Made by a program: the position numbers and the translations under genes. From positions 1-64,000 of the forward strand of contig NZ_PCPS01000009.1 in the NCBI RefSeq assembly GCF_002975405.1: a stretch of 64,000 nucleotides of DNA, given 5' to 3'. The stretch comes from Arthrobacter sp. MYb229 (GTDB lineage: Bacteria; Actinomycetota; Actinomycetes; Actinomycetales; Micrococcaceae). Positions within the stretch are counted from its first letter, which is position 1. Every line of letters starts with the position of its first letter. The notes beneath the pieces are model-generated. The model had not been told where the DNA came from and ran no database searches. It was given only the letters and a program-made list of their open reading frames with translations. Below, one piece after another: positions 13,426 to 31,379 of the stretch.

Positions 13426-13602
13426 CTACCGACCCAAAAGGCGTGAGAAGAATCCTCGGGCGGAGCGTGATTTCTTCGGCGCATTTGGGTCGCAACTGCA
13501 GCGCTCTTTTTGTGGAATATGAGCCATGACCTGCTGGACATGCTGGCCACAGCCGGCCCAAGTTGTTTTATGGCATAGGCGACAATTGACGGCACGGCAC
13601 AT
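13426..13602 (-). CDS. Small Cys-rich protein, zinc-ribbon-like
   Basis: A 58-residue protein, MCRAVNCRLCHKTTWAGCGQ at the start, then HVQQVMAHIPQKERCSCD and a C-terminal FFSRLLGR. Six cysteines (2, 7, 10, 18, 35, 37) and two histidines (11, 21) suggest a bound metal. From memory, short actinobacterial proteins share the TWAGCGQHV core and the FFSRLxGR end; no function is known to me. ATG at 13602 has AGGAAG seven bases upstream. It is divergent from the CsoR-family gene across a 162-bp gap containing two operators, so the two are probably co-regulated. Confidence 0.75.
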   Translation of the reverse strand: MCRAVNCRLCHKTTWAGCGQHVQQVMAHIPQKERCSCDPNAPKKSRSARGFFSRLLGR

Positions 13603-13667: not shown

Positions 13668-13683
13668 ATACCCTAGGGGGTAT
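13668..13683. promoter_or_regulatory. CsoR-family operator 1
   Basis: ATACCCTAGGGGGTAT is an inverted repeat of the TACCC/GGGTA type bound by CsoR/CstR repressors. It lies between the divergent Cys-rich and CsoR-family genes. Confidence 0.75.
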
Positions 13684-13712: not shown

Positions 13713-13728
13713 AAACCCCTAGGGGTAT
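13713..13728. promoter_or_regulatory. CsoR-family operator 2
   Basis: AAACCCCTAGGGGTAT has a perfect ACCCCTAGGGGT core and runs into TATAGA, a possible -10 element of the repressor gene. This implies autoregulation. Its centre is 45 bp from operator 1. Confidence 0.75.
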
Positions 13729-13764: not shown

Positions 13765-14022
13765 ATGCAGCTTGAAGTCGAAACCATGAAGCCCGCAATC
13801 AACAGGCTCAAGCGGGCACAGGGTCAGCTCAATGCAGTGATTCGCATGTTGGAAGAGGGAAGCGATTGCCGCGCAGTGGTCACGCAGCTATCCGCCGCCT
13901 CCAAGGCGATTGACCGCGCGGGGTTCTCCATCATCGCCACCGGACTGGAGCAGTGCCTGCAATCCGAAAATCCGGAACTAGACCGAGCCGACATGGAGAA
14001 ATTATTCCTCTCACTGGCCTAG
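13765..14022 (+). CDS. CsoR/CstR-family transcriptional repressor with a Cys-Gly-Cys ligand set
   Basis: An 85-residue all-helical repressor (DUF156). The N-terminal AINRLKRAQGQLNAVIRMLE is diagnostic. The copper sensor CsoR uses Cys, His, Cys with spacings of 25 and 4; here the positions are Cys35, Gly60, Cys64. The histidine is missing but the two thiols keep the 29-residue spacing of the persulfide sensor CstR. The protein may therefore sense sulfane sulfur or thiol oxidation rather than Cu(I). Four matching operators lie in the window, two at its own promoter and two at copZA. A second, true CsoR elsewhere in the genome could also use them. Confidence 0.88.
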   Translation: MQLEVETMKPAINRLKRAQGQLNAVIRMLEEGSDCRAVVTQLSAASKAIDRAGFSIIATGLEQCLQSENPELDRADMEKLFLSLA

Positions 14023-14094: not shown

Positions 14095-14505
14095 CTAGTC
14101 CCGAGCATCATCCAGCAGCGCCGCCAGGAGTGCGCGGTCTGCCCCATCAAGCAAGCCCACGAACCGCGCGAGGCAGTTCTCCTTATTGTTCGTCTCCGTT
14201 AACGAACGGACCATATGCGCTGCAGAAAACTGGCAACCGGTCAGCGTGGCCTCGTATGTCCAGACTCTCCCGATCAGCGTGCGCGCGAGCAGTCCCTTGT
14301 CGAAGAGGTGCCCAAGCACGGTGGCGACCGTGGTGTAAGCAGGTGTGACCTCCTCTTCCGCATCCATTATTTCGAGTACGGTACGCGCGGTGTGCGGTTG
14401 GCCGCTGCGCCATAAGATGTTCATCACCCGTCGCTCCAGGGACCCGAGCTGCGGGGCATGCTCCACGCTGAAGGGCAAAGACGGCGGCACAGAGTCACTG
14501 GTCAT
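14095..14505 (-). CDS. BlaI/MecI/CopY-family transcriptional repressor
   Basis: A 136-residue protein with the BlaI winged helix (LGSLERRVMNILWRSGQPHT, YTTVATVLGHLFDKGLL) and a C-terminal helical dimerisation part. No BlaR-type sensor protease is present; instead the gene overlaps the upstream CxxC membrane protein gene by 4 bp (ATGA), so both are translated together. The start at 14505 has GGAGG upstream and matches family length. The candidate operator at 15169-15185, between the membrane protein and the dsbA-like gene, is its likely target, which would place the thiol-redox genes under its control. Confidence 0.85.
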   Translation of the reverse strand: MTSDSVPPSLPFSVEHAPQLGSLERRVMNILWRSGQPHTARTVLEIMDAEEEVTPAYTTVATVLGHLFDKGLLARTLIGRVWTYEATLTGCQFSAAHMVRSLTETNNKENCLARFVGLLDGADRALLAALLDDARD

Positions 14506-15098
14506 CGAGGAAGACCTCCAATCGATACGCGTGGACGCGCAGGTACAGCACACTGGACTTGGCCGGAAAGCCGGAAAATCAAAGCAACGAACGTTGATGC
14601 CACTGCGATGCCTGCCAGCCAAGGCTGCAACGGAGCAAAGTACGTAGTTGCTCCGGAATACCCTAAGACCAAGAGGGCGATTTTATTGCAGACCGGGCAA
14701 CCCACGGCGAACCAAGCCAGAACGCCGCCGGTGAGCCCTAGCCTAGAAGTCGCTTTTTCTTCTTTTCCTTGCCGTTTCTCGGCGGACCGAGTTGCCGGAT
14801 CCTGACTCTGCGCGGAACCACTTGAATTCATTTCTGTTGAATTTTTGACGTAGCTTGCCAAGAGAAGTCCTGAGAGTCCCGAGGTGGCGATCCACACTGG
14901 GTAATTCCACAGGGTCGCGGGGATCTCGCGGGTGAAGATGCCGTTGGGAATCAAGACTGTTGCGAGCCCCAAAAGCACTCCTACCGCCACGGTGGCGGCG
15001 ATTGCCGCCAGCCACTGCCGAGTCCCCCATAAGCTCAAGGCCTGTCCCGACAAAGGAATCCGACTGATAAACCCCTTCACCCATTCGTTCGCTGGCAA
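14502..15098 (-). CDS. Membrane protein with a CxxC motif at a membrane edge
   Basis: A 198-residue protein with about four membrane segments and a charged loop of about 40 residues (EMNSSGSAQSQD to KEEKATSRL). The motif GCPVCNK (Cys134, Cys137) opens the third hydrophobic stretch, a place suited to thiol exchange across the membrane or metal passage. The start is a TTG at 15098 with AAGGAG five bases upstream. It is divergent from the DsbA-like gene and coupled to the BlaI-type repressor. I do not know a characterised member; a partner of the adjacent Dsb-like system is inference. Confidence 0.75.
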   Translation of the reverse strand: MPANEWVKGFISRIPLSGQALSLWGTRQWLAAIAATVAVGVLLGLATVLIPNGIFTREIPATLWNYPVWIATSGLSGLLLASYVKNSTEMNSSGSAQSQDPATRSAEKRQGKEEKATSRLGLTGGVLAWFAVGCPVCNKIALLVLGYSGATTYFAPLQPWLAGIAVASTFVALIFRLSGQVQCAVPARPRVSIGGLPR

Positions 15099-15168
15099 CC
15101 TAGCTCCTTACCGAGCGCAGGCGGTCGCTCCGCCGGCATTTGTTTATTACTATGCCCCATCGTACTGT

Positions 15169-15185
15169 TACTAATCAACGTAGTA
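15169..15185. promoter_or_regulatory. Candidate BlaI-type operator
   Basis: TACTA and TAGTA (15169-15173 and 15181-15185) flank 7 bp in the gap between the divergent membrane protein and DsbA-like genes. A further TTACTA lies at 15147-15152. BlaI/CopY repressors bind TACTA/TAGTA-like dyads; assignment to the local repressor is inference. Confidence 0.45.
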
Positions 15186-15224
15186 GTAAGTATTGGCGCC
15201 CTGACGGCAGGGAAGGAAATATAG

Positions 15225-15995
15225 ATGATGAGCACGAATGAAACCGCTTCGAGGACACCAAAGGGGAAACGGCTTCCGTGGTTTTGGCTCCTCCCCATTC
15301 CGATCGTCATCGTCGTCGCCTTGCTGATTTGGTCCCAAATACCGGGCAAAGCTCCAGAATCGGCGCAGGCACCTTCGGCGATAGCGGAGAGCATCCAAGA
15401 AGCACCCGCTACGCCCGCGGCACCGCCGGCCTTTCCCGACGTCTCTCGCCTGGATCCAAAGGATCCAACTGCCGTGGGGTCGGTCGACGCCCCCGTCGTC
15501 ATGGTGGCCTACTCAGATTTCCAATGCCCGTTCTGCGCCAAGTGGACCGATAGCACCCTGCCGAAACTCACCGAGAAATACGTAGACAACGGGCAGCTGC
15601 GGATCGAGTGGCGAGATCTGGACATCTTCGGCGAGGCCTCGCTGACGGCCGCCCAGGCTGGCCAGGCAGCCGCACTGCAAGGCGGCTATATCGACTTCCA
15701 CCATCGCCTGTCCCAGGGCGGGAACATCTCCGCGGCAAAAGACTTCACCGATGAATCCCTGTTTGCGATCGCCGAAGACCTGGGGCTGGAGGGCGACAAA
15801 CTCGTCACCGACATGGGCAGCGCCCAGGTCAAGGACGCAGTGCAGCGCAATATTGCAGAAGCCCAGTCCCTGGGCGTATTGAGCACACCGTCATTCCTCA
15901 TCAACCGGACACCATTCGTCGGCGCCCAGCCACTGGCCAACTTCGAGGCGGCAATCGAGGCAGAGCTCGCCAAGGCCGAAGCCGAGCAACCATAG
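15225..15995 (+). CDS. DsbA-family thiol-disulfide oxidoreductase, membrane anchored
   Basis: A 256-residue protein. A basic N-terminus and one membrane helix (residues 19-37) tether it outside the membrane, followed by an Ala/Pro-rich linker. The thioredoxin fold begins near residue 85 with active site FQCPFCAKW (Cys101, Cys104) and has the cis-proline loop LSTPSFLIN. The fold is of the DsbA/DSBA_oxidored type, which forms or shuffles disulfides in exported proteins. ATGATG at 15225 follows GGAAGGAAA. The next gene, ccdA-like, starts on the last base of its stop codon, so the two are coupled and probably functional partners. Confidence 0.9.
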   Translation: MMSTNETASRTPKGKRLPWFWLLPIPIVIVVALLIWSQIPGKAPESAQAPSAIAESIQEAPATPAAPPAFPDVSRLDPKDPTAVGSVDAPVVMVAYSDFQCPFCAKWTDSTLPKLTEKYVDNGQLRIEWRDLDIFGEASLTAAQAGQAAALQGGYIDFHHRLSQGGNISAAKDFTDESLFAIAEDLGLEGDKLVTDMGSAQVKDAVQRNIAEAQSLGVLSTPSFLINRTPFVGAQPLANFEAAIEAELAKAEAEQP

Positions 15996-16867
15996 TGGAG
16001 GCCGGAATCCTATTTGCCTTTGTCGGTGGGCTGCTCGGCCTATTTAGCCCTTGCAATGCAATGCTTCTGCCGGCGTTCTTTGCCCATGCAGCGACTTCCA
16101 CCCGGCGACTTGGCGCCATCGGCTTGGCCTTTCTTGTCGGCACGCTAGCCACGCTGGTACCACTTGGCCTAGGCATGGGGTGGCTCGGCGGCGCCCTTGC
16201 CGTTGACCGCGGGCTGCTCATTGTCATCGCCGCATGGGTGATAGTGGCCTTCGGACTACTACAGATTTTTGGCGGCGGCTTTGACGCCGCGCGATTCTTG
16301 CCGTCACGAGTACGCCAACCACGCGCTCCGGGCTCGCTATGGGGTGCAGCGCTCTTGGGTACCGTTGCCGGTGTCGCAGGTTTTTGCACCGGACCGGTCC
16401 TTGGCGCAATCCTGACCTTGGTCCTCACCTCGGGCAGCCCGCTAGCCGGCGGCCTGCTGCTTTCCGTGTACGGCGCTGGCACGGTACTGCCCATCATCGC
16501 TCTGGCATGGGCCGTCAAGAAGTATGGCGGAATGCGCTGGAGGTGGATGCGCGGCCGCCAGCTTCGGCTGGGCCGGTTGCACTTGCACAGCAACACCCTG
16601 ATCGCCGGAACAGTCACCTTGCTCGTCGGTGTGGCGATGCTTCTCACCGGCGGCTTGGCCACCGCCGGCGAGCTGCTGCCGCACGACATCCTCGATGGAA
16701 TTTCTACAACTGCCGCGAACATCGACGCGGCCATACCAACGTGGATCTGGATCACTCTGGCCGCGGCCGGTTTCTTCGCCTGGTGGGTTGCAGAAGCTCT
16801 TCGCCGTTTATCGGCATCGGCTAGCGCTCGGTCGGCGCAGTCCACTTCCACGAAGGGAACACCATGA
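15995..16867 (+). CDS. CcdA/DsbD-like membrane electron carrier
   Basis: A 290-residue membrane protein of the CcdA fold. The paired cysteines expected for moving reducing power across the membrane are seen in FSPCNAMLLP (Cys20) and GFCTGPVLG (Cys131). The GTG start at 15995 overlaps the TAG of the DsbA-like gene by one base. The final 40 residues (a last helix and a Ser-rich tail) extend beyond the minimal fold. The three-gene operon continues with a DsrE-like protein overlapping by 4 bp. It likely keeps the DsbA-like partner, or an exported thiol, reduced. Confidence 0.88.
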   Translation: MEAGILFAFVGGLLGLFSPCNAMLLPAFFAHAATSTRRLGAIGLAFLVGTLATLVPLGLGMGWLGGALAVDRGLLIVIAAWVIVAFGLLQIFGGGFDAARFLPSRVRQPRAPGSLWGAALLGTVAGVAGFCTGPVLGAILTLVLTSGSPLAGGLLLSVYGAGTVLPIIALAWAVKKYGGMRWRWMRGRQLRLGRLHLHSNTLIAGTVTLLVGVAMLLTGGLATAGELLPHDILDGISTTAANIDAAIPTWIWITLAAAGFFAWWVAEALRRLSASASARSAQSTSTKGTP

Positions 16868-17211
16868 ACCACCATCTCCTGCTCCATCTTGCCGGTACCG
16901 GCGAAGCCCCGCAGCCCAATCTGGAGATGGCTGCGCGCGTCGCCCGCAACGCCCGAGCCGAGCTCCCCGATTGGACCATCGAGCTTGTGGTCCAGGGCCC
17001 GCAGGTAGCGCTCCTGGCCACCGGGAGCGAGCTGGCCCAAGAGGTGGTTTCGCTAGTGGATGCCGGGTTCATCGTGAGTGCCTGTGCCAACAGCCTGCGC
17101 TCGGCCGCGGTTGACGGCGAAGGACTGGCAGCCGGCGTTCGAATTGTCAGCGCCGCGGTGGCGCGCCTAGCCACCGCTCAAATCGACGGTGCCGCGTACA
17201 TCCGTGTTTAG
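16864..17211 (+). CDS. DsrE-like sulfur-carrier protein
   Basis: A 115-residue protein of the DsrE/DsrF-like type (COG1416-like). The pattern is a first strand LLLHLAGTG, the strand IELVVQGPQVALLA, the conserved cysteine in VSACANSLR (Cys74), and the C-terminal GVRIVSAAVARLATAQIDGAAYIRV-type segment, seen here as GVRIVSAAVARLATAQ and DGAAYIRV. Such proteins carry or sense persulfide sulfur. It overlaps the ccdA-like gene by ATGA. Together with the CstR-like regulator nearby this points to sulfane-sulfur or thiol-stress handling. Confidence 0.8.
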   Translation: MNHHLLLHLAGTGEAPQPNLEMAARVARNARAELPDWTIELVVQGPQVALLATGSELAQEVVSLVDAGFIVSACANSLRSAAVDGEGLAAGVRIVSAAVARLATAQIDGAAYIRV

Positions 17212-17325: not shown

Positions 17326-19629
17326 CTAGCTTGATCGTTGCTTTCGTCCGAACCCACGCAGCCGCAGCGAGTTCGCGACGACCAGCACTGAGCTGGCGGC
17401 CATGGCGGCACCTGCAATCATGGGATTCAAGAACCCCAGGGCTGCCACCGGAATACCAGCGGTGTTGTAGACAAACGCCCAGAACAGGTTCATCTTGATA
17501 GTTCCCAGTGTCTTGCGGGAAAGCTCGATAGCTTGCGCAACCTGCTCGACGTCATTGCCCATGATGGTGACGTCGGCTGCTTCGATCGCCACATCCGTCC
17601 CGGAACCCATCGCGATGCCAAGGTCTGCCTGAGCCAGCGCCGGAGCGTCGTTGACGCCGTCGCCGACCATTGCCACGACCCTGCCTTGCTCCTGCAGCTG
17701 GCGCACGGCCTGAGCCTTGCCTTCGGGGAAGACATCCGCGAACACGTCTTCCGGCGCGATACCAACCTTGGCGGCAACTTGCTGCGCTACCGCCTTGTTA
17801 TCCCCGGTGAGCAATACCGGGCGCAACCCAAGTCCCTTGAGCCTTGCAATGGCGGCAGCCGAGGACTCCTTGATGGTGTCGGTCAGGTTGACGAATCCGG
17901 CAAAGGCTCCATCCACGCCGATCATAATCGAGGTCGCGCCACTGCTCTGCGCGGTTGCAAGATCCGCGAGCTGCCGATCGGTTAGCTCAATCCCATTTTC
18001 CTTCAGCCAGCTTTCCCGGCCGGCCACCACGGTGTGCACACCCACCGTTGCTCGCACGCCGCCACCGGCGGCGGAGACGAACCCGGTAGCCACGGCCAAG
18101 GAAGCGTTGGCACGCGCCGCTTCGACAATTGCTTGGGCAATCGGGTGCTCAGACCCCGCTTCCGCCGCGCCGGCCAGTGCCAGCAGCTCTTCTTCGTCAA
18201 ATCCCGACGCCGGGGTTGTAGAGGTGACCGCAAGGTTGCCCTCGGTCACGGTGCCGGTCTTGTCCAGCAGCACGGTGTCAACCTTGCGGGTGTCTTCCAG
18301 GACTTGCGGTCCACGGATCAGGATGCCCAGCTGGGCCCCGCGTCCGGTACCCACCAGCAAACCAATAGGAGTCGCCAGGCCTAAGGCACAAGGGCAAGCA
18401 ATGACCAGCACCGCTACCGCGGCAGCGACGGCCGAGCCCATATCACCGGTGAGCAATAGCCAGAGAACAAAGGTGGACAGCGCAATGACCAGCACAATCG
18501 GCACGAAGACCGCGGAGATGCGGTCTGCAAGTCGAGCGATCGGCGCCTTGCCCGTCTGCGCCTGGGATACCAGGCGTCCCATCTGAGCCAGCGTGGTGTC
18601 CTTGCCAACGCGGGTAGCACGAATAACCAGTACGCCGGAGGTGTTGATTGTTGCACCGGTAACGGTGTCATCCGGGCCGACTTCCACGGGCACCGATTCT
18701 CCGGTAACCAATGCGGTATCCACCGCCGAGTGCCCCGAGACGACAAAGCCGTCGGTGGCAATTTTTTCGCCGGGGCGCACAATGAACTCATCGCCAGGAA
18801 GCAACTCGGCCGCTGAAACCTTGGTTTCGACGCCCTCGCGGATCAATGTGGCTTCCTTGGCGCCTAGATCCAGCAAGGTCTTAAGCGCGTCGCCGGCCCG
18901 GACTTTGGCGCGGGCTTCCAACCAGCGGCCGAGCAGCAGGAAGGTCGCCACGACACCCGCGGTCTCGAAGTACAGCGCATGCTCGCTCATGGCCATGCCG
19001 ACGTGGGCCGTGATATTCGGATCCGCAATCAGCTGCCACAGCGAGTAGAAGTAAGCCGCAAGTACACCAATTGAGACCAGGGTGTCCATGGTGGAGGACA
19101 GATGGCGCGCGTTGATGGCAGCGGCACGGTGGAACGGCCAGGCTGACCAGAACGTCACCGGGGTGGCAAGCGCCAGCGCAACCCAACCCCAATGCGGGAA
19201 TTGAGCGCCGGGGATCATGGAAATAATGAACAGCGGCACGGTGAAGATCGCGCCGACAATGAGGCGTGTCTTCAGGTCCTGGCCTGCCTGCGCGGCGGGC
19301 TTGTTCCTGCGCGGCGGCTCAAGCGATGCTGCTGCAGTGGAGGTTCGCGCGGTTTCGGTCTGCGAACGGGCTGTCTGCTCTGCGTATTGGTCCACCTTGA
19401 GGTTGGCCTTGTAGCCGGCGGATTCGACGGTCGAGATCAGCTCTTCGTCCGTTACGCCTTCCGGAACCGTCACGCGAGCGGACTCCAGCGGAAGATTCAC
19501 CAGCGCTTCCACGCCTTCCAGCTTCCCCAGCTTGCGTTCGACTCGACCCACGCAGGAAGCACAGGTCATTCCCTGAATATCCAACTCGACGATGCGTTGA
19601 TTGGTGGGGAATGCGGTGTCGTTACTCAT
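17326..19629 (-). CDS. copA: Copper-exporting P-type ATPase (P1B-1)
   Basis: A 767-residue heavy-metal ATPase. One N-terminal HMA domain (GMTCASC, Cys23/Cys26) is followed by an Ala-rich linker, eight membrane segments, TGES (309-312), the ion-channel motif ACPCALG (CPC at 412-414), phosphorylation site DKTGT (Asp456), SEHP (493-496) and GDGVNDAPAL. The last helices carry YNTAGIPVAA and MAASS, residues typical of Cu(I) pumps. It moves Cu(I) out of the cytoplasm using ATP. The gene lies 70 bp downstream of copZ and shares its promoter with two CsoR-type operators. Confidence 0.93.
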   Translation of the reverse strand: MSNDTAFPTNQRIVELDIQGMTCASCVGRVERKLGKLEGVEALVNLPLESARVTVPEGVTDEELISTVESAGYKANLKVDQYAEQTARSQTETARTSTAAASLEPPRRNKPAAQAGQDLKTRLIVGAIFTVPLFIISMIPGAQFPHWGWVALALATPVTFWSAWPFHRAAAINARHLSSTMDTLVSIGVLAAYFYSLWQLIADPNITAHVGMAMSEHALYFETAGVVATFLLLGRWLEARAKVRAGDALKTLLDLGAKEATLIREGVETKVSAAELLPGDEFIVRPGEKIATDGFVVSGHSAVDTALVTGESVPVEVGPDDTVTGATINTSGVLVIRATRVGKDTTLAQMGRLVSQAQTGKAPIARLADRISAVFVPIVLVIALSTFVLWLLLTGDMGSAVAAAVAVLVIACPCALGLATPIGLLVGTGRGAQLGILIRGPQVLEDTRKVDTVLLDKTGTVTEGNLAVTSTTPASGFDEEELLALAGAAEAGSEHPIAQAIVEAARANASLAVATGFVSAAGGGVRATVGVHTVVAGRESWLKENGIELTDRQLADLATAQSSGATSIMIGVDGAFAGFVNLTDTIKESSAAAIARLKGLGLRPVLLTGDNKAVAQQVAAKVGIAPEDVFADVFPEGKAQAVRQLQEQGRVVAMVGDGVNDAPALAQADLGIAMGSGTDVAIEAADVTIMGNDVEQVAQAIELSRKTLGTIKMNLFWAFVYNTAGIPVAALGFLNPMIAGAAMAASSVLVVANSLRLRGFGRKQRSS

Positions 19630-19699: not shown

Positions 19700-20008
19700 T
19701 TAGGCTTCCGCGGAAACGAGCTTGTAGCCCGCTTCGGCGACGGCCGCTTCGAGAATCGAGTTCTCGACTGGTTTGTTGGTGGCGATGGTAGCCGTAGAGG
19801 CTCCACCGACGACGAGGTCAACCTCGACATTGCTGACACCAGGGATCTCTTGGAGTTCCTCGGTCACTGACGAAACACAGTGCCCGCAGGTCATGCCTTC
19901 AATCTTCAAGGTGATGTCGTTGCTCATGATGTCCTCCGTGTTTGTTGTATTGCTATTTGCTTCTTCATCGCTCGAGCTGCATCCGCAGCAGCTTGATTCG
20001 TTGCTCAT
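19700..20008 (-). CDS. copZ: Copper chaperone CopZ with a Cys-rich N-terminal extension
   Basis: A 102-residue protein. Residues 30-102 are an HMA domain with GMTCGHC (Cys41, Cys44). Residues 1-27 are an added Cys/Ser/Asp-rich tail (SSCCGCSSS). Two starts have good ribosome-binding sites: ATG 20008 after AGAGGAACTC, and ATG 19927 after GGAGGACATC, which gives the plain chaperone of about 75 residues. Both begin MSN. It delivers Cu(I) to CopA, encoded just downstream. Confidence 0.88.
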   Translation of the reverse strand: MSNESSCCGCSSSDEEANSNTTNTEDIMSNDITLKIEGMTCGHCVSSVTEELQEIPGVSNVEVDLVVGGASTATIATNKPVENSILEAAVAEAGYKLVSAEA

Positions 20009-20134: not shown

Positions 20135-20162
20135 GATATACCCCTAGAGGGTATCGAGTCAA
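20135..20162 (-). promoter_or_regulatory. copZA promoter
   Basis: On the minus strand, TTGACT (20157-20162) and TATATC (20135-20140) are 16 bp apart. The spacer is filled by a CsoR-type operator, the standard arrangement for repression. Confidence 0.7.
20138..20154. promoter_or_regulatory. CsoR-family operator 3 (copZA)
   Basis: ATACCCCTAGAGGGTAT has the same TACCC/GGGTA arms as the sites at the CsoR-family gene 6.4 kb away, and overlaps the copZA promoter spacer. Confidence 0.78.
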
Positions 20163-20179
20163 GTACCCCCATAGGGTAT
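20163..20179. promoter_or_regulatory. CsoR-family operator 4 (copZA)
   Basis: GTACCCCCATAGGGTAT is a second, less perfect dyad upstream of the -35 element, centred 25 bp from operator 3. The tandem layout resembles that at the repressor gene. Confidence 0.7.
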
Positions 20180-24430: not shown

Positions 24431-25801
24431 CTATCTCTTCCCCGTCACCAGATCCGCCAGGTGCGCTATGGCGGAGGTCTTCGTCCCACCCTTGGATTCG
24501 GCCCGGTCCGCCATCCCATAGGCAGCATAGAGCCCCGTGGTGGCCATCCAACGAAGCGGTTCGGGTTCCCACTGCCGCACCTTGTGGTTGACCCAGGGCA
24601 AATTGGTCAGCGCGGTATTCTGGCCTAAGACCAGATCGCGCAGGGTTCGACCGGCAAGGTTGGTGGTAGCCACGCCGGTCCCCACATATCCCCCGGCCCA
24701 GCCGATTCCAGTGCGCGGATCCATACCGACGGTGGCGGCCCAATCTCGCGGAACCCCGAGCACCCCGGACCAGGCATGAGCGATCGCCGCTTGCTTGGCT
24801 TGCGGGAATAGCCGTTGCAAAATTTCTTGGAGTCCGTTGACCGTCACCGCTGGAGTCATCCCATCAAGGTCGGTACGCGACCCGAATTTGTAGGGAACTC
24901 CGCGACCTCCAATGGCGATCCGATCATCGGCGGTGCGCTGGGCGTACATGTACACGTGGGCAAAATCGCCAAGCACTTCGCCGTTCTTCCAGTTCACCTC
25001 ATCCCAGAAAGATGCATCCAGCGGCTCGGTGGCAATCATCGAAGAATTCATCGGCAGCCACAAGCGCTTATGGCCTTTAATTCCGGCGGTGAAGCCCTCG
25101 GTCGCACGAATGATGAAGTCCGCGGTGACGGTTCCACCAGCAAAATCCAGTCGGTGAGAACTGATCTCGGTGACCCTGGTGCTCTCGAAGATTTCTACTC
25201 CGAGAGATTCGACTGCCTGTGCCAGCCCACTGACCAGTTTGGCCGGTTGGATCCGAGCGGCATGCGGGTGCCAGGCGGCGGCAAGTGTGCCCGCGACATT
25301 GATCTGCTGTGCAGCTTCGGAGCTTTCCAGCAGCTGCACCCCGCTGTGCTCCCAAGACTGCTCGGCGGTCACGAAAGCGCGCAATCGTGCCTCTTGGGCC
25401 GGATTGTACGCAACCTCGAATTCGCCGCCCTGCAGGATGTCCGCGTCGATGTTCTCCGCGGCGCAGACCCGCACCACTTCGTCGATGGTTTGATTCATGG
25501 CCAGCTGAAAGTCGTCGACCGCTTGCCGGCCGTGGGATTTCAGATATTGTTCGCGTCCACCGGTAATGGTGTTGGTCAGCCAGCCGCCATTGCGTCCGGA
25601 CGCCCCATACCCGATATGGCGCTGCTCCAGGATAGCGATGCGCAGGCTAGGCGCTGCTTGCTTCAAATAGTAGGCGGCCCACAGACCGGTAAAACCGGCA
25701 CCCACAATGGCAACGTCAAATGCATGGGATCCGCGCAGAGTTTCCCGCGAGGTGGGTAATCCAAGGCGTTCCCACCAATGAGAGACATGGCCATTGATCA
25801 T
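24431..25801 (-). CDS. FAD-dependent amine oxidase-like oxidoreductase (DAO family)
   Basis: A 456-residue DAO-family flavoenzyme. FAD-binding motif FDVAIVGAGFTGLWAAYYL, then EQRHIGYGASGRNGGW typical of the PuuB-like group (gamma-glutamylputrescine oxidase and relatives), and C-terminal GWAGGYVGTGVATTNLAGRT. It probably oxidises a primary or secondary amine with O2. The start at 25801 follows AAGGA; an upstream in-frame start lacks one. A possible metabolic link to gabD at 35 kb (both act in putrescine/GABA degradation) is inference, as they are not in one operon. Confidence 0.82.
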   Translation of the reverse strand: MINGHVSHWWERLGLPTSRETLRGSHAFDVAIVGAGFTGLWAAYYLKQAAPSLRIAILEQRHIGYGASGRNGGWLTNTITGGREQYLKSHGRQAVDDFQLAMNQTIDEVVRVCAAENIDADILQGGEFEVAYNPAQEARLRAFVTAEQSWEHSGVQLLESSEAAQQINVAGTLAAAWHPHAARIQPAKLVSGLAQAVESLGVEIFESTRVTEISSHRLDFAGGTVTADFIIRATEGFTAGIKGHKRLWLPMNSSMIATEPLDASFWDEVNWKNGEVLGDFAHVYMYAQRTADDRIAIGGRGVPYKFGSRTDLDGMTPAVTVNGLQEILQRLFPQAKQAAIAHAWSGVLGVPRDWAATVGMDPRTGIGWAGGYVGTGVATTNLAGRTLRDLVLGQNTALTNLPWVNHKVRQWEPEPLRWMATTGLYAAYGMADRAESKGGTKTSAIAHLADLVTGKR

Positions 25802-25902
25802 GTGATTCCTTCGTTCCACAACGAATAAATGAACCACGCTCACTTTATGGTTCCGAAATCACTCTAGAGTCACGGCACCCACCCTGGCAAGGGTTCAAGA
25901 AG

Positions 25903-26835
25903 CTATTCGGAAAGCTCCACATGCGCGCCCGGTGCCGGAGCACTGACCATCATGGTGGCGACTCCCACCTCGTCTCCGAGCTGCGTCATCACCTGCTCGG
26001 CGTGTTCGGCATCGCGCACCAGCAGGGCCAAGGTCGGTCCCGACCCGGACACCATGGCCCGCAGCGCGCCGGCGCCTTCGGCGAGGTCCCGCACGGTTCC
26101 AAGTTCCGGAGCCAAGGCCAAGGATGCCTGCGTCAGGTCATTGACCAGAAGCTGCGACAGCGCTTCGGTATCCGATTCCATCAGCGCTTTAATAACCTGT
26201 GGATCGATCTCTTGTGGAACCTCAACACACTGGCCGGCGCGCAGCCGGTCGAGCATCGAATAGACGCGAGGGGTCGATAAGCCAAAACTGGCAGGGATCA
26301 ATACCCACTGCGTCTTGGCACGGGTCAGCAAGGGGGCGAGTTTGTCGCCGATGCCCAGGCCGATGGCCGCACCGCCCATGAGCGCAAAAGGCACATCGGC
26401 GCCGAGCCGGGCGCCAAGCCTGCCAAGCTCTTCACGGTCCAGTCCGGTCCCCCACAGCTCGTTGCAGGCAACGAGAGCAGCCGCGGCATCCGCGGAACCG
26501 CCGCCCATCCCGCCGGCAATCGGTACGCGCTTGGTGATGTGGAGGTTTGCACCCAAGGTGCAACCGGTATGCTCGCGGAGAAGCTCGGCGGCTTTCCACA
26601 CGAGGTTATTTTGGCCCAGCGGGAAATTTTCCGGATCGGCAACTACCGGCGAGCCCGGTTCTAGGCTCAGCTGCAGTTCACCGTCTGCACGCAGTGTGGC
26701 TTCGATTTGCTCCAGCAGGGATACCGCGACATACAGGCTGGCGACCTCATGGTAGCCGTCCTCACGCGGTGGTCCCACCCGGAAATAGCAGTTAATTTTT
26801 CCCGGCGCGGTGGCGATGACGCGTTGCTTGGCCAT
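25903..26835 (-). CDS. ispE: 4-diphosphocytidyl-2-C-methyl-D-erythritol kinase
   Basis: A 310-residue GHMP kinase of the MEP isoprenoid pathway; phosphorylates CDP-methylerythritol. ATAPGKINCYFRVG at the N-terminus and the ATP loop PIAGGMGGGSADAAAAL are diagnostic, and the C-terminal VSGSGPTLALL motif is present. ATG at 26835 is 2 bp after the rsmA stop, so the genes are coupled. The order tatD-rpfB-rsmA-ispE is standard in actinobacteria. Confidence 0.95.
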   Translation of the reverse strand: MAKQRVIATAPGKINCYFRVGPPREDGYHEVASLYVAVSLLEQIEATLRADGELQLSLEPGSPVVADPENFPLGQNNLVWKAAELLREHTGCTLGANLHITKRVPIAGGMGGGSADAAAALVACNELWGTGLDREELGRLGARLGADVPFALMGGAAIGLGIGDKLAPLLTRAKTQWVLIPASFGLSTPRVYSMLDRLRAGQCVEVPQEIDPQVIKALMESDTEALSQLLVNDLTQASLALAPELGTVRDLAEGAGALRAMVSGSGPTLALLVRDAEHAEQVMTQLGDEVGVATMMVSAPAPGAHVELSE

Positions 26836-26837
26836 CG

Positions 26838-27719
26838 TTAGTCTTCGGTCTGCACGAGCGCCGGCACCGTGTGAGCCGCACGAGCAATCGAGATGAATCC
26901 GTCTACGTCCAGCTTCTCCCCGCGCTCCTTCGGGTCGATGCCTGCAGCGTGCAGGATCTGCTCGGCGCGAGCGCCGGATCCGGCCCACCCGGACAGGGCA
27001 GCGCGCAGCGTCTTGCGGCGTTGGGCAAAGGCTGCGTCAATGATGGCAAAGACTTCCTTGCGGTCTGGTGCGTCGCTGCGATCCTTGTCGCGAGTGAAAG
27101 CCACCAGGCCGGAATGGATCTTGGGGGCCGGCCAAAAGACGTTCATGCCAATGACCCCTGCCTTGCGCATGGTGCCGTACCAGGCGCCCTTGACCGAGGG
27201 GACACCGTAGATCTTATTTCCCGGTGTCGCGCACATCCGGTCGGCGACCTCGTCCTGCACCATCACCAGGCCATGGGTGATGGATTCGAAATGCTCCATC
27301 AGGTGCAGCACCACGGGCACTGCAACGTTATATGGGAGATTTGCGACAAGGGCGGTGGGATTGCCCGGAAGCTCGGTGATCTTCATGGCATCGCTGAGGA
27401 TCACCGTCAGGTCCTCTTCGCGGCCCGGACGGAGTTCGGCCATGGTCTGCGGCAACCGCTTCGCAAGCGGCGGGTCGATCTCTACGGCGACCACCTTTGC
27501 CGCGGCATCCATGATTCCGAGGGTCAGCGAGCCGAGGCCCGGTCCGACCTCAAGCACGGTCTCCTCCGGGGCGACATTTGCGGTGGCCACAATCCTGCGG
27601 ATGGTGTTTCCGTCAATGACAAAGTTCTGCCCGAGGGTCTTCGTGGGACGTATCCCAAGCTCCTCGGCCAGTCGACGGATTTCGGTAGCCCCAAGCAGTG
27701 GCAAAGATTCCTTAGACAT
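26838..27719 (-). CDS. rsmA: 16S rRNA (adenine1518-N6/adenine1519-N6) dimethyltransferase
   Basis: A 293-residue KsgA/RsmA enzyme that dimethylates two adenines in helix 45 of 16S r[13 protein letters not shown], the SAM-binding [10 protein letters not shown] and the catalytic [10 protein letters not shown] are all present. ATG 27719 is preferred over GTG 27722; both follow TAGGT. The gene is between rpfB and ispE. Confidence 0.95.
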
Positions 27720-27761
27720 CACACCTACAATTCTAGTTCAGCGCGCAAGGACTGCTGACGC

Positions 27762-27802
27762 GACGCGACGCGCCCACCCGAATGGGGTGGACGCGTCGCG
27801 TC
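27762..27802 (-). terminator. Terminator/hairpin between rpfB and rsmA
   Basis: GACGCGACGCG(C)CCACCC pairs with GGGTGG(A)CGCGTCGCGTC, a stem of about 18 bp with one mismatch and a short loop, 17 bp beyond the rpfB stop on the minus strand. It should at least attenuate read-through. Confidence 0.75.
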
Positions 27803-27818
27803 AAAAGTTTTCTGCTGC

Positions 27819-29117
27819 TTAGCGCAGCCCGAGCTTGGACGAGCAGTGTGGCCAGTGGCCCCATCCGCCGTTGGCACGCAGCTTCTCAGCGGTAGCAATC
27901 TGTTCCTGAGGGCTGGCCTGGTGTGGCAGCGGCGCGTACTTCGTTCCGCCGGCTCCGCGCCATGACGAAGCGGAGAACTGGAGTCCACCGTAGTAGCCGT
28001 TACCGGTGTTGATCGACCAGTTGCCACCGGACTCGCACTTGGCCAGAGCCGCCCAGGTAGAGGAGATGCTACCGGTTGGAGCCTTGGTCTTGGAGTCCGA
28101 GCTCTTGGAATCCGAGCTTGATTCAGGCTTCTTGGTTCCGACTCGAATAACCTCTGCGACTGGCTCCTTGGTGACCTTGGACTTCAGAACTTCTTCCTCG
28201 CCCTTTTTACCATTGCGGGTTTCCTGGCGAAGCGTCAGTTCACGCTCGCCCTTTTTGCCCTCGGTTTTGACCTTGGTCTTGCCCTTTTCGAGCTTCGAAT
28301 CCTTGACCTTCTCGGTATCAAAACCGATCTCTCGCTTTTCATCCCAAGTCTTCACCGAAACGACGATGACCTCGATCTTGGTGTCGTCCTCGATCTTGGT
28401 GCTGGTCTTCGCGTCCTTGTCGGTGTCTTTACCTACTTGAACGTTGACCTCGTCGTCCTTGTCGAGCTTGACCTTCTGCTCGGCAAGCAGTTCCTTGACG
28501 GTCTGCGCGGTGGTCGAAATCTTCTGCTTCTTCTCGTCGACAAGCAGAGTCACATTTTTAGGGGTGATGATCTCGATTTCGTCGCTGAGGCTGACGAGCT
28601 CGATATCTTCGCCGAGGGATACTTCCGACTTCTCATCCAGCTTCAGTTCGTCCATGACATCCGCCACGGTCATGCCGGTGGTGTGCACTACTCGGTCGGT
28701 GCCGTCGATGCTGACCTGTACCGACTTGTTGCGGCTGATCTCGATGCGCTGCTCATCGGAAAGCTCCGAATCTGCGGCCACGCTCAACTCGTCACGCTCG
28801 TAAACGCTGATGCCTTCCTGCTCAAGGGCATCCTGCACGGTTGCTGCGCGGGTGGTGAAGATCTGCTCATCGCCATCAATGGCCACGGTCACGGACTTCT
28901 GGCCGGAAATATAAAAAACAGCTCCGGCAATGACCACGGCAACAGCCACGGCCTGGGCCAGATATTTGACCCAGCTTTTTTTGAGCAAGTGCATCACGGT
29001 AGTGAGATCCCCATCGTTTGTAGGTCGAACGCCAGGAAGATACTCCCGGTAAGTCTTGCTCAACCGTGGCGGCCAGGCCGCCGGTATAAAATTCAGTTTG
29101 CGCGTCACCCGATCCAC
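27819..29117 (-). CDS. rpfB: Resuscitation-promoting factor RpfB
   Basis: A 432-residue secreted/anchored peptidoglycan hydrolase. After a cytoplasmic N-terminus and one membrane helix (about 50-71) come three DUF348 repeats (SVTVAIDGDEQIFTTRAATV and two more), a G5 domain with many Lys/Glu residues, a Ser/Lys linker, and the C-terminal lysozyme-like Rpf domain (WAALAKCESGGNWSINTGNG, with catalytic Glu in CESGG). It cleaves cell-wall glycan and promotes regrowth from dormancy. The GTG at 29117 lacks a clear ribosome-binding site; ATG 28994 is the alternative. Confidence 0.93.
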   Translation of the reverse strand: MDRVTRKLNFIPAAWPPRLSKTYREYLPGVRPTNDGDLTTVMHLLKKSWVKYLAQAVAVAVVIAGAVFYISGQKSVTVAIDGDEQIFTTRAATVQDALEQEGISVYERDELSVAADSELSDEQRIEISRNKSVQVSIDGTDRVVHTTGMTVADVMDELKLDEKSEVSLGEDIELVSLSDEIEIITPKNVTLLVDEKKQKISTTAQTVKELLAEQKVKLDKDDEVNVQVGKDTDKDAKTSTKIEDDTKIEVIVVSVKTWDEKREIGFDTEKVKDSKLEKGKTKVKTEGKKGERELTLRQETRNGKKGEEEVLKSKVTKEPVAEVIRVGTKKPESSSDSKSSDSKTKAPTGSISSTWAALAKCESGGNWSINTGNGYYGGLQFSASSWRGAGGTKYAPLPHQASPQEQIATAEKLRANGGWGHWPHCSSKLGLR

Positions 29118-29206
29118 GGAGGATCTAGTCCCCTACGGAAATACGGCAACGCACTAGGTTGCGACCGGCTCAGGGCGCGCTCGCAACTCAACGCTTTCCA
29201 ATAACC

Positions 29207-29222
29207 GTAACCGAATTGTAAT
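29207..29222. promoter_or_regulatory. MtrA-box-like direct repeat upstream of rpfB
   Basis: GTAAC, 6 bp, GTAAT resembles the GTAAC-N5/6-GTAAC box of the response regulator MtrA, known to act on rpf genes in other actinobacteria. It lies about 95 bp upstream of the rpfB start. One copy is imperfect. Confidence 0.4.
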
Positions 29223-29265
29223 AATTGGCGCAACCTTTATATGTCGGAAACCACACCCGGCAGGA

Positions 29266-30213
29266 CTACAATGCGCCGTACACCGCACCCGTATTCGCGG
29301 CTAGCTGCTCGCACAATTGAGCTAATTCAGCACCCCTGGTTTCAGCCATAAAGCGGACGGTATGGGGGATCATGTAGCTCGCATTTGGCCGCCCCCGGAA
29401 AGGATGTGGCGTCAGGAACGGCGCATCCGTTTCGACAAGCAACAACTGCGGGTCTGCTAGGCGCAAGGCCTGCTGGAGATCTGTTGAATTCTTGAAGGTC
29501 ACGGTCCCCGAAAATGACATGTACCAGCCGTTGGCATTGCAGATCCGCGCCAGCTCGGCGTCGCCGGAAAAGCAATGGAAAACCACGCGCTCGGGCAACG
29601 GCGCATCGTTCAAGATCCGAACCACATCATGATGTGCGTCACGGTCGTGGATTTGGACTGCTTTTCCATGTTCCACGGCGATCCGCAAATGCTCGCGGAA
29701 GGACTTTTCCTGCGCATGATGCCCCGCTTCGCCCGTTCGGAAGTAATCCAGCCCGGTCTCACCGATGGCCCGCACCCGCTCGTTTGCCGCCAACTCCTCG
29801 ATCTGCTCAATCGCGGCCTCAAGTTCGCCATGCAACGCTAGGCGTGCGGCATCATTGGGGTGGATAGCGATCGCAGCCAAGATGTTTGGAAAGTCCTTGG
29901 CCGCCTGCACGGCGAATTTTGACGATTCCACGTCGCAGCCAACCTGGATCAGCCCCTCCACCCCGACCGCTGCGGCCGCGCTGAGGGCCTGCTGCACACT
30001 GGCATTCACCGAACCATCGCGAAAATCCAGATGCGTATGGTTGTCGATCACCGGTACCGGCAGCGGGGCGGGTGCCTCCGGGTAACGGGTATTTCGTTTG
30101 CTTCCGTTCTTTTCTGTCTTTGCCGAGCGGGCGCGTTCCCCGGTAGGTGAAGAATTCGATTCTTCTGCCGGACGGTACCCCTCGGGAATCCGTGAGAAAT
30201 CGGATTCGCTCAT
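29266..30213 (-). CDS. TatD-family metal-dependent DNase/hydrolase
   Basis: A 315-residue TIM-barrel hydrolase. Metal ligands are seen in VIDNHTHLDF, in the conserved glutamate GETGLDYF, in VQIHDRDAHHD, and in the final TDAPFLTPHPFRGRPN. Residues 1-50 are a polar extension common in this family in Micrococcaceae. ATG 30213 is chosen because the extension from there (YRPAEES to PVPVIDNHTHLDF) resembles relatives; an upstream GTG at 30273 lacks a ribosome-binding site. It heads the tatD-rpfB-rsmA-ispE group. Confidence 0.88.
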   Translation of the reverse strand: MSESDFSRIPEGYRPAEESNSSPTGERARSAKTEKNGSKRNTRYPEAPAPLPVPVIDNHTHLDFRDGSVNASVQQALSAAAAVGVEGLIQVGCDVESSKFAVQAAKDFPNILAAIAIHPNDAARLALHGELEAAIEQIEELAANERVRAIGETGLDYFRTGEAGHHAQEKSFREHLRIAVEHGKAVQIHDRDAHHDVVRILNDAPLPERVVFHCFSGDAELARICNANGWYMSFSGTVTFKNSTDLQQALRLADPQLLLVETDAPFLTPHPFRGRPNASYMIPHTVRFMAETRGAELAQLCEQLAANTGAVYGAL

Positions 30214-30416
30214 CTGCGCACCGGACCTTTCGTCATAAATATTGTCAGTTCTTGGGTCTAATTCTTCCACCACCGGTACACAGGGAAAGAATCAAGGTAT
30301 TTAGAAGCTATTCGTGGAGAAAAGAACCCCATATGATGTGAACACAAGCTACGGGAATTGCTTAGCGTGTCAAAGATGACCTCGGCACGATAAGTTGCCC
30401 AGCCAGGAGAATGCGC

Positions 30417-31379
30417 ATGAGTGCCCACCCAACACTCCCCTTGGTAGATTCGACGTTTAGGTCGAATTACCAACGGATGTTCGATGCTGTGCAGACAGTA
30501 ATCGCGGGTAAGCCCGAAGCAATTACCAACACCATTGTGGTGCTCCTCGCGCAAGGGCATCTGCTGCTCGAAGACGTTCCCGGAGTCGGCAAAACCATGC
30601 TCGCCAAGTCATTGGCCCGCAGTGTCAACGGATCCGTGCACCGAATCCAGTTCACACCGGATCTGTTGCCCAGCGACGTTACCGGCGTCTCGGTGTTCTC
30701 CCCGCAAGATCATGAGTTCACGTTCCATCCCGGCCCAATCTTTGCAAATATCGTGATCGCGGATGAGATCAACCGGGCAAACGCGAAGACCCAGTCCGCC
30801 CTGCTTGAGTGCATGGAAGAGCAGCAGGTCACCGTGGACTCGATTACCCACCCATTGCAGAGGCCATTTATGGTCGTTGCCACACAGAACCCCATAGATT
30901 CGGAAGGTACGTTCGCGCTGCCAGAGGCACAACGGGACAGGTTCATGGGTCGAATTTCGATGGGCTACCCACACCGCGAAGCAGAAATTTCCATGCTCAC
31001 CAGCCACCATGTAGCCGAACCGCTTGACTCGCTGCGCTCAGTGCTTGAGCTCGAACAACTGCGGCAAATGATCGAACAAGTGAGGCAGGTGACCGTTACC
31101 GATCGGTTGAGTGGCTACGTCGTTGATTTGGGTCGGGCCACCCGCGACCATCCGCATATCTCGTTGGGCGCTTCGCCTCGTGCGCTCGTGCAATGGGTCC
31201 GCGCCGCAAAATCCCATGCGGCTATTAACGGACGGGATCATGTATTGCCCGAAGATGTGCGTGGAGTAGCCGAGATGCTGCTCTCGCACCGGCTGATCCT
31301 GACCCGCAGGGCATTATCCGAAGGCGTGGAACCCGCTGCTTTGATCCAGGAGCTTGTTTCCGCCACACCAGTCGGATAG
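30417..31379 (+). CDS. MoxR-family AAA+ ATPase
   Basis: A 320-residue AAA+ chaperone. Walker A EDVPGVGKTMLAKSL, Walker B IVIADEINRANAKTQSALLE and the sensor region ATQNPIDSEGTFALPEAQRD are exact MoxR features. ATG 30417 has AGGAG seven bases upstream; the ATG at 30411 is too close. It leads an operon with DUF58 and transglutaminase genes, the classic MoxR set, which is thought to assemble or activate envelope-associated complexes. Confidence 0.92.
   Translation: MSAHPTLPLVDSTFRSNYQRMFDAVQTVIAGKPEAITNTIVVLLAQGHLLLEDVPGVGKTMLAKSLARSVNGSVHRIQFTPDLLPSDVTGVSVFSPQDHEFTFHPGPIFANIVIADEINRANAKTQSALLECMEEQQVTVDSITHPLQRPFMVVATQNPIDSEGTFALPEAQRDRFMGRISMGYPHREAEISMLTSHHVAEPLDSLRSVLELEQLRQMIEQVRQVTVTDRLSGYVVDLGRATRDHPHISLGASPRALVQWVRAAKSHAAINGRDHVLPEDVRGVAEMLLSHRLILTRRALSEGVEPAALIQELVSATPVG

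Follow-up and report, generated by a model that had tools for sequence, protein, structure and literature searches.

The cstR-type gene at 13765..14022 (+ strand) and the copZA genes, whose promoters lie within 7 kb of each other in the window (the whole 64,000-nucleotide stretch of Arthrobacter sp. MYb229 DNA that we analysed), very probably represent two insulated regulons side by side: a persulfide response under CstR, and copZA under a CsoR acting in trans. A sequence-only reading of the same DNA had held that the same operators control cstR and copZA, and had proposed that copper export is coupled to sulfane sulfur or that a second CsoR shares the sites. Both proposals presuppose one common operator, and this was not borne out; the sites before cstR have a four-base spacer (TACCC-N4-GGGTA, hereafter N4), those before copZ have one of five bases (TACCC-N5-GGGTA, hereafter N5), and the spacers sort with regulator class in 105 genes. 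Because the spacers, once counted, differ by one base, the puzzle dissolves, and neither coupling nor site-sharing is needed.

The cstR-type gene is an intact open frame, and its 85-residue translation (MQLEVETMKP...LFLSLA) matched PF02583 with an E-value of 4.8e-21 (75.4 bits against a cut-off of 22.8). Translation and alignment agreed with the ligand positions that had been read earlier from the letters: Cys35, Gly60 and Cys64 fall on the positions of the CsoR Cys-His-Cys copper site, the two cysteines are 29 residues apart, and with no His between them the protein aligns with annotated staphylococcal CstR (Cys-Asn-Cys). In phmmer alignments the best PDB sequence match was 7mq1 (E = 1e-8), deposited under the name csoR, which has Asn at the His position and which we take to be the pneumococcal persulfide sensor; in 2hh7, the M. 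tuberculosis CsoR, His stands at the site where the window protein has Gly. These features, along with a paralogue beside persulfide-type genes (below), uphold the earlier description of the protein as CstR-like, and judged by its sequence it is a CstR-type repressor, an ordinary cousin of CsoR and of a known kind. That it is still a copper sensor, taking up Cu(I) through its two cysteines with no histidine, we regard as very improbable: both Cys of the CsoR site are retained, and in vitro other members of the family bind metals to which they do not respond in cells (PMC5016687), but Gly takes the place of the His, the residue before the first Cys is Asp where 61 of 61 Cys-His-Cys genes encode Tyr, the close paralogue lies beside persulfide-type genes, and the NCBIfam RicR model, an "exception"-type model whose cut-off of 175 bits also lies above the score of the Cys-His-Cys CsoR of this genome (121 bits), gave 33.8 bits. 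It is also unlikely that some other thiol-reactive signal (a formaldehyde-like electrophile, nitroxyl, selenite or tellurite) is sensed and not persulfide. The gene company of the class is of the persulfide type, and although FrmR and RcnR share the Pfam family, the window protein scored 34.6 and 25.3 bits against their models, far under the cut-offs of 133 and 138, and has Gln at residue 2 where FrmR has Pro2; what speaks for such a signal, besides that FrmR score, is the reactivity of CstR towards nitroxyl (PMC5480029) and towards sulfite, selenite and tellurite (PMC5016687). Purifying selection acts on the window gene (dN ~0.07, with dS 1.1, 1.3 or saturated, against five relatives), the protein being conserved and synonymous sites near saturation; a DNA tree of 33 cstR genes gave no supported placement of the window copy, which has a long branch.

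Two operator-like N4 sites precede cstR, an exact one, ATACCC-TAGG-GGGTAT, at 13668..13683, between the gene and a divergent gene for a small Cys-rich protein, and a second with one mismatch, AAACCC-CTAG-GGGTAT, at 13713..13728. This is the operator class of CstR-type sensors; no exact N5 site, as expected of a copper sensor's own operator, was found before the gene. Both sites before copZ are N5, TACCC-CTAGA-GGGTA at 20139..20153 and TACCC-CCATA-GGGTA at 20164..20178, and the first falls inside a promoter-like -35/-10 pair on the minus strand (one found, 0.2 expected); around cstR no such pair was found. A looser pattern (up to three mismatches) matched 22 times in the whole window against a shuffle mean of 9.25, and no shuffle reached 22. 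The whole genome has five places with the exact N5 pattern (three at csoR and copZ, two elsewhere) and seven with the exact N4 pattern (four at the two cstR loci, three elsewhere), against one occurrence of the reversed control pattern for N5 and four for N4. An exact N5 site with an adjacent N6 version was also seen before an MFS-transporter-like ORF (L016 ~1501; G000 C18:170338).

Among 58 genomes, that of the window included, 56 had a total of 109 family matches, and 105 genes from 54 genomes were classified by residue as 61 Cys-His-Cys, 20 Cys-Gly-Cys, 22 Cys-Ala-Cys, one Cys-Thr-Cys and one Cys-His-His; many members of the CsoR family have lost the His. In the stretch scanned for each gene (from 1000 down to 60 bases ahead of the codon for the first Cys), exact N5 sites preceded 47 of the 61 Cys-His-Cys genes and N4 sites none, in counts of rows that are related by descent and do not equal independent events; with one mismatch allowed the figures were 52 and none, which leaves nine of the 61 with no N5 site. 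The Cys-Gly-Cys genes had exact N4 sites in 16 of 20 cases and N5 in none, and with one mismatch N4 in all 20 and N5 in one, where it overlaps an N4 site. For the Cys-Ala-Cys genes the N4 counts were six of 22 (exact) and eight of 22 (one mismatch), with no N5 at either setting and no N4 in the scanned stretch of 14; the single Cys-Thr-Cys gene had neither spacer and the single Cys-His-His gene had N5. A further 35 Cys-His-Cys genes yielded an exact N5 site in 22, none in the other 13, and N4 in none.

Scanning 103 whole loci for spacers of 0–9 gave 61 exact N4 sites, 82 exact N5 sites and five sites for all other spacers. When genes were labelled by phmmer with proteins of the window, C19 and C12, 55 of the N4 sites fell near CstR-type, dioxygenase-like, rhodanese or small-Cys genes and 77 of the N5 sites by Cys-His-Cys csoR, copZ or copA, the remaining six and five being unassigned and none crossed; on this split and the counts above we reject operators common to cstR and copZA. 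From a scan of named loci with the window protein we used the 75 among the best 80 of 153 that did not repeat earlier genomes, and these held 131 exact N4 sites (104 by sulfur-type genes, 27 unassigned), eight N5 sites and one N1; one of the eight is, as expected, before copZ in a Microlunatus assembly (L217). Twelve plasmid loci were hand-picked for spread among the matches. In the 11 of CstR type (from Staphylococcus, Enterococcus, Cytobacillus, Leuconostoc, Paenibacillus, Arthrobacter, Streptomyces and Rhodococcus) N4 was present and N5 absent in every case with up to one mismatch, the N4 site in some lying at the start of the gene group and not of the regulator, and one staphylococcal Cys-His-Cys csoR plasmid locus had N5. 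The cstR locus of one contig filed under Sporosarcina (Bacillota; L199) fell in a tree among Paeniglutamicibacter/Arthrobacter, possibly through contamination of that assembly.

A profile search of the assembly (3,998,291 bases) identified three PF02583 genes, those of the window and of contigs C19 and C12, and so turned up the second, Cys-His-Cys CsoR that the sequence-only reading had said to look for; there is one, on C12. It has 109 residues, a copZ-like gene downstream and one N5 site of its own. The C19 paralogue is Cys-Gly-Cys, 91% identical to the window protein and identical to a protein from Arthrobacter plasmids; its locus has four N4 sites (one with a mismatch), and its gene is divergent from those for a small Cys-rich protein, a metallo-beta-lactamase/rhodanese fusion (persulfide-dioxygenase-like) and a rhodanese protein. 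This gene company is that expected for a persulfide sensor, the dioxygenase-like and rhodanese genes being beside the C19 copy and not adjacent to that of the window. At the DNA level the C19 cstR is identical to one in G. ardleyensis, and the C19 region (L165) has a recombinase-like ORF and a P-type ATPase; it is probably a recent transfer. Given the spacer sorting and a C12 CsoR with its N5 site, the two stress responses look kept apart, not coupled.

We therefore favour, from the sequence evidence, an arrangement in which a CstR tetramer would repress cstR itself and the divergent gene for the small Cys protein through the two N4 sites, and CstR and its C19 paralogue would probably repress the C19 dioxygenase-like/rhodanese operon through the N4 sites there, until reaction of persulfide or polysulfide at Cys35/Cys64 caused CstR to release the DNA. 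The copZA genes would be a separate unit, repressed in trans by the C12 CsoR through the two N5 sites and freed when Cu(I) releases CsoR, and the one-base spacer difference would confine each paralogous repressor to its own promoters. Residues, sites, spacers, multi-locus association and synteny were observed, and from these we infer DNA binding, effectors and repression.

The copA gene (copper-translocating P-type ATPase) is at 17326..19629 (-); apart from it the genome gave one copA-like match, a P-type ATPase on C19 with 37% identity. The copZ-like gene, with an HMA domain, occupies 19700..20008 (-), the copZ part running from 19927; the alternative upstream start of this longer ORF would add a Cys-rich N-terminal stretch (MSNESSCCGCSS...), resembling the Cys-rich beginning of the C12 copZ, MSHACNCGCS. 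Of 18 genomes of the genus, that of the window counted among them, 15 have copA together with the Cys-His-Cys csoR-copZ; in the other three (that of the window, G001 and G009) csoR-copZ is found without copA, and the copZA genes neighbour a Cys-Gly-Cys cstR and the small Cys gene. By blastn, the window copZA, the cstR/small-Cys pair and the stretch 24437-31379 are collinear in G001 and G009, and all three genomes have two N5 sites at copZ and one exact and one mismatched N4 site at cstR; synteny of copZA and cstR across the three is clear, and the copZA-linked cstR copies may form one clade, the tree having given the window copy no supported placement. Conservation of this neighbourhood in two related Glutamicibacter-type genomes could be taken to mean that sulfane sulfur and copper export really are coupled, the window CstR binding the copZA operators alone or with CsoR, and the identical half-sites, the closeness of the two promoters and the seeming use of both N4 and N5 by a single CstR-type regulator in Demequina (below) point the same way. 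We nevertheless think coupling improbable: the spacers differ and sort with regulator class, the genome has a Cys-His-Cys CsoR with an N5 site, and both relatives hold N5 at copZ and N4 at cstR with no convergence. As the genes are adjacent yet their sites have not converged, joint control of copZA and cstR is disfavoured.

Only the window, of the three genomes, has an extra block between cstR and copA, consisting of genes for a BlaI/CopY-type repressor (14095-14622, -) and a membrane protein (14502-15098, -), which are neighbours outside the CstR unit, followed by DsbA-like (15225-15995, +), CcdA-like (15995-16867, +) and DsrE-like (16864-17211, +) genes. Control of the DsbA-CcdA-DsrE genes by CstR was considered and rejected; no N4 site precedes them, and in its place is a TACTA-N7-TAGTA palindrome (15169..15185), likely a BlaI-type operator of this thiol module, which also precedes the same module in L126, L182, L190, L202 and L206. 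The module (14095-17211) is mobile-looking, with palindromes in tandem in relatives and one clear copy in the window; it lies beside a cstR/dioxygenase/rhodanese cluster on an Arthrobacter plasmid and near persulfide clusters in other loci too.

The divergent gene at 13426..13602 (-) encodes a 58-residue Cys-rich protein with the family motif MCRxxxCxxCxKTTWAGCGxH...C, in which C2, C7, C10, K12, W15, G17, C18, G19, H21 and C35 are invariant in 30 aligned rows. It is a frequent neighbour of CstR-type genes, lying within 1.5 kb of 24 of 43 His-less family genes (with Gly, Ala or Thr instead) and near none of 60 Cys-His-Cys loci, and in 39 of 65 cases an N4 site (one mismatch allowed) stands no more than 200 bases upstream. 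Neither Pfam nor NCBIfam gave a family over its cut-off; the predicted fold was of modest confidence (pLDDT 74.8, pTM 0.49), and a Foldseek search with it gave no match at E≤0.001 and five at E up to 10. The protein is a likely, unnamed member of the CstR regulon, and it perhaps binds zinc or persulfide.

Exceptions to the spacer rule were found at six CstR-type promoters with N5 among the best 80 of 153 loci, those of Enemella (L238) and of five Demequina loci (L247, L249, L253, L260 and L262); the eighth N5 site of that set is further downstream in L253. A profile search of the five Demequina genomes found no PF02583 gene besides the CstR-type one and no copper CsoR; the Enemella genome has a Cys-His-Cys CsoR as well. 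Across a set of 58 named genomes searched for family genes, N5 occurred at the CstR-type gene in five of the eight without a match of at least 90 bits and in one of the 50 with one, 90 bits being the start of the Cys-His-Cys score range and residues having been checked only where a locus is given. Four of these Demequina loci (L247, L249, L260 and L262) also have an N4 site just downstream, in L249 and L260 (the two with ORFs listed) preceding an oxidoreductase-like ORF, and the Demequina regulator may accept both N4 and N5. The five are one genus and may represent one event; the pattern fits relaxed insulation after loss of CsoR without proving it. We rate as evenly balanced the wider proposal that a one-base spacer insulates CstR from CsoR in Actinobacteria and Firmicutes, even a few kilobases apart, and is relaxed in lineages that lost CsoR, such as Demequina.

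Both halves of the spacer contrast are already in print. Copper CsoR sites of S. lividans have the form TAC-X9-GTA, a spacing shown for several Firmicutes CsoRs too, that of M. tuberculosis differing (PMC3902906), and S. coelicolor ScCsoR, a sulfane-sulfur sensor with Cys37/Cys66 that regulates a persulfide dioxygenase and a rhodanese, has the site ATACC-n6-GGTAT (PMC7533328). The latter equals the N4 site of the window, and the window protein resembles ScCsoR in that site, in two Cys 29 residues apart and in the gene company of its class, which lies by persulfide dioxygenase and rhodanese genes; unlike ScCsoR, the window copy is beside the small Cys-rich gene and, past the thiol module, copZA. 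The CsoR of S. aureus, a paralogue of CstR there, is unresponsive to sulfide stress (PMC5480029), and the site of T. thermophilus TTHA1953, a protein filed near CstR, is quite unlike these (PMC10318464). The window protein shares with staphylococcal CstR the two Cys and the lack of a His ligand (with Gly where the latter has Asn), N4 sites precede cstR/cstA in S. succinus, S. xylosus and S. pasteuri, and S. xylosus CstR (36% identity) was the closest of the aligned Firmicutes rows. With S. lividans CsoR and RicR it shares the PF02583 fold family and a G-tract palindrome with TAC/GTA ends, but it differs in having no Cys-His-Cys, no Tyr before the first Cys, and N4 operators of its own. The N4-versus-N5 contrast itself was not found in the literature covered, which comprised PMC3902906, PMC10318464, PMC9918477, PMC7533328, PMC5480029 and PMC5016687, and a prior statement of it, above all in work on S. 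aureus CstR, is possible.

CsoR-family genes are often annotated just as "metal-sensitive transcriptional regulator", which hides the difference between copper and persulfide sensing. Across the loci examined two marks, the spacer of the nearby operator and the residue where CsoR has its His, agree with few exceptions, and used together they would sort CsoR-family genes and help to predict targets lying far off, such as copZA. What we consider worth keeping is the one-base spacer contrast, which is broad in these data and has informative exceptions; if the spacer does separate the two repressors, gaining or losing a single base should move an operon from copper to persulfide control or the reverse.
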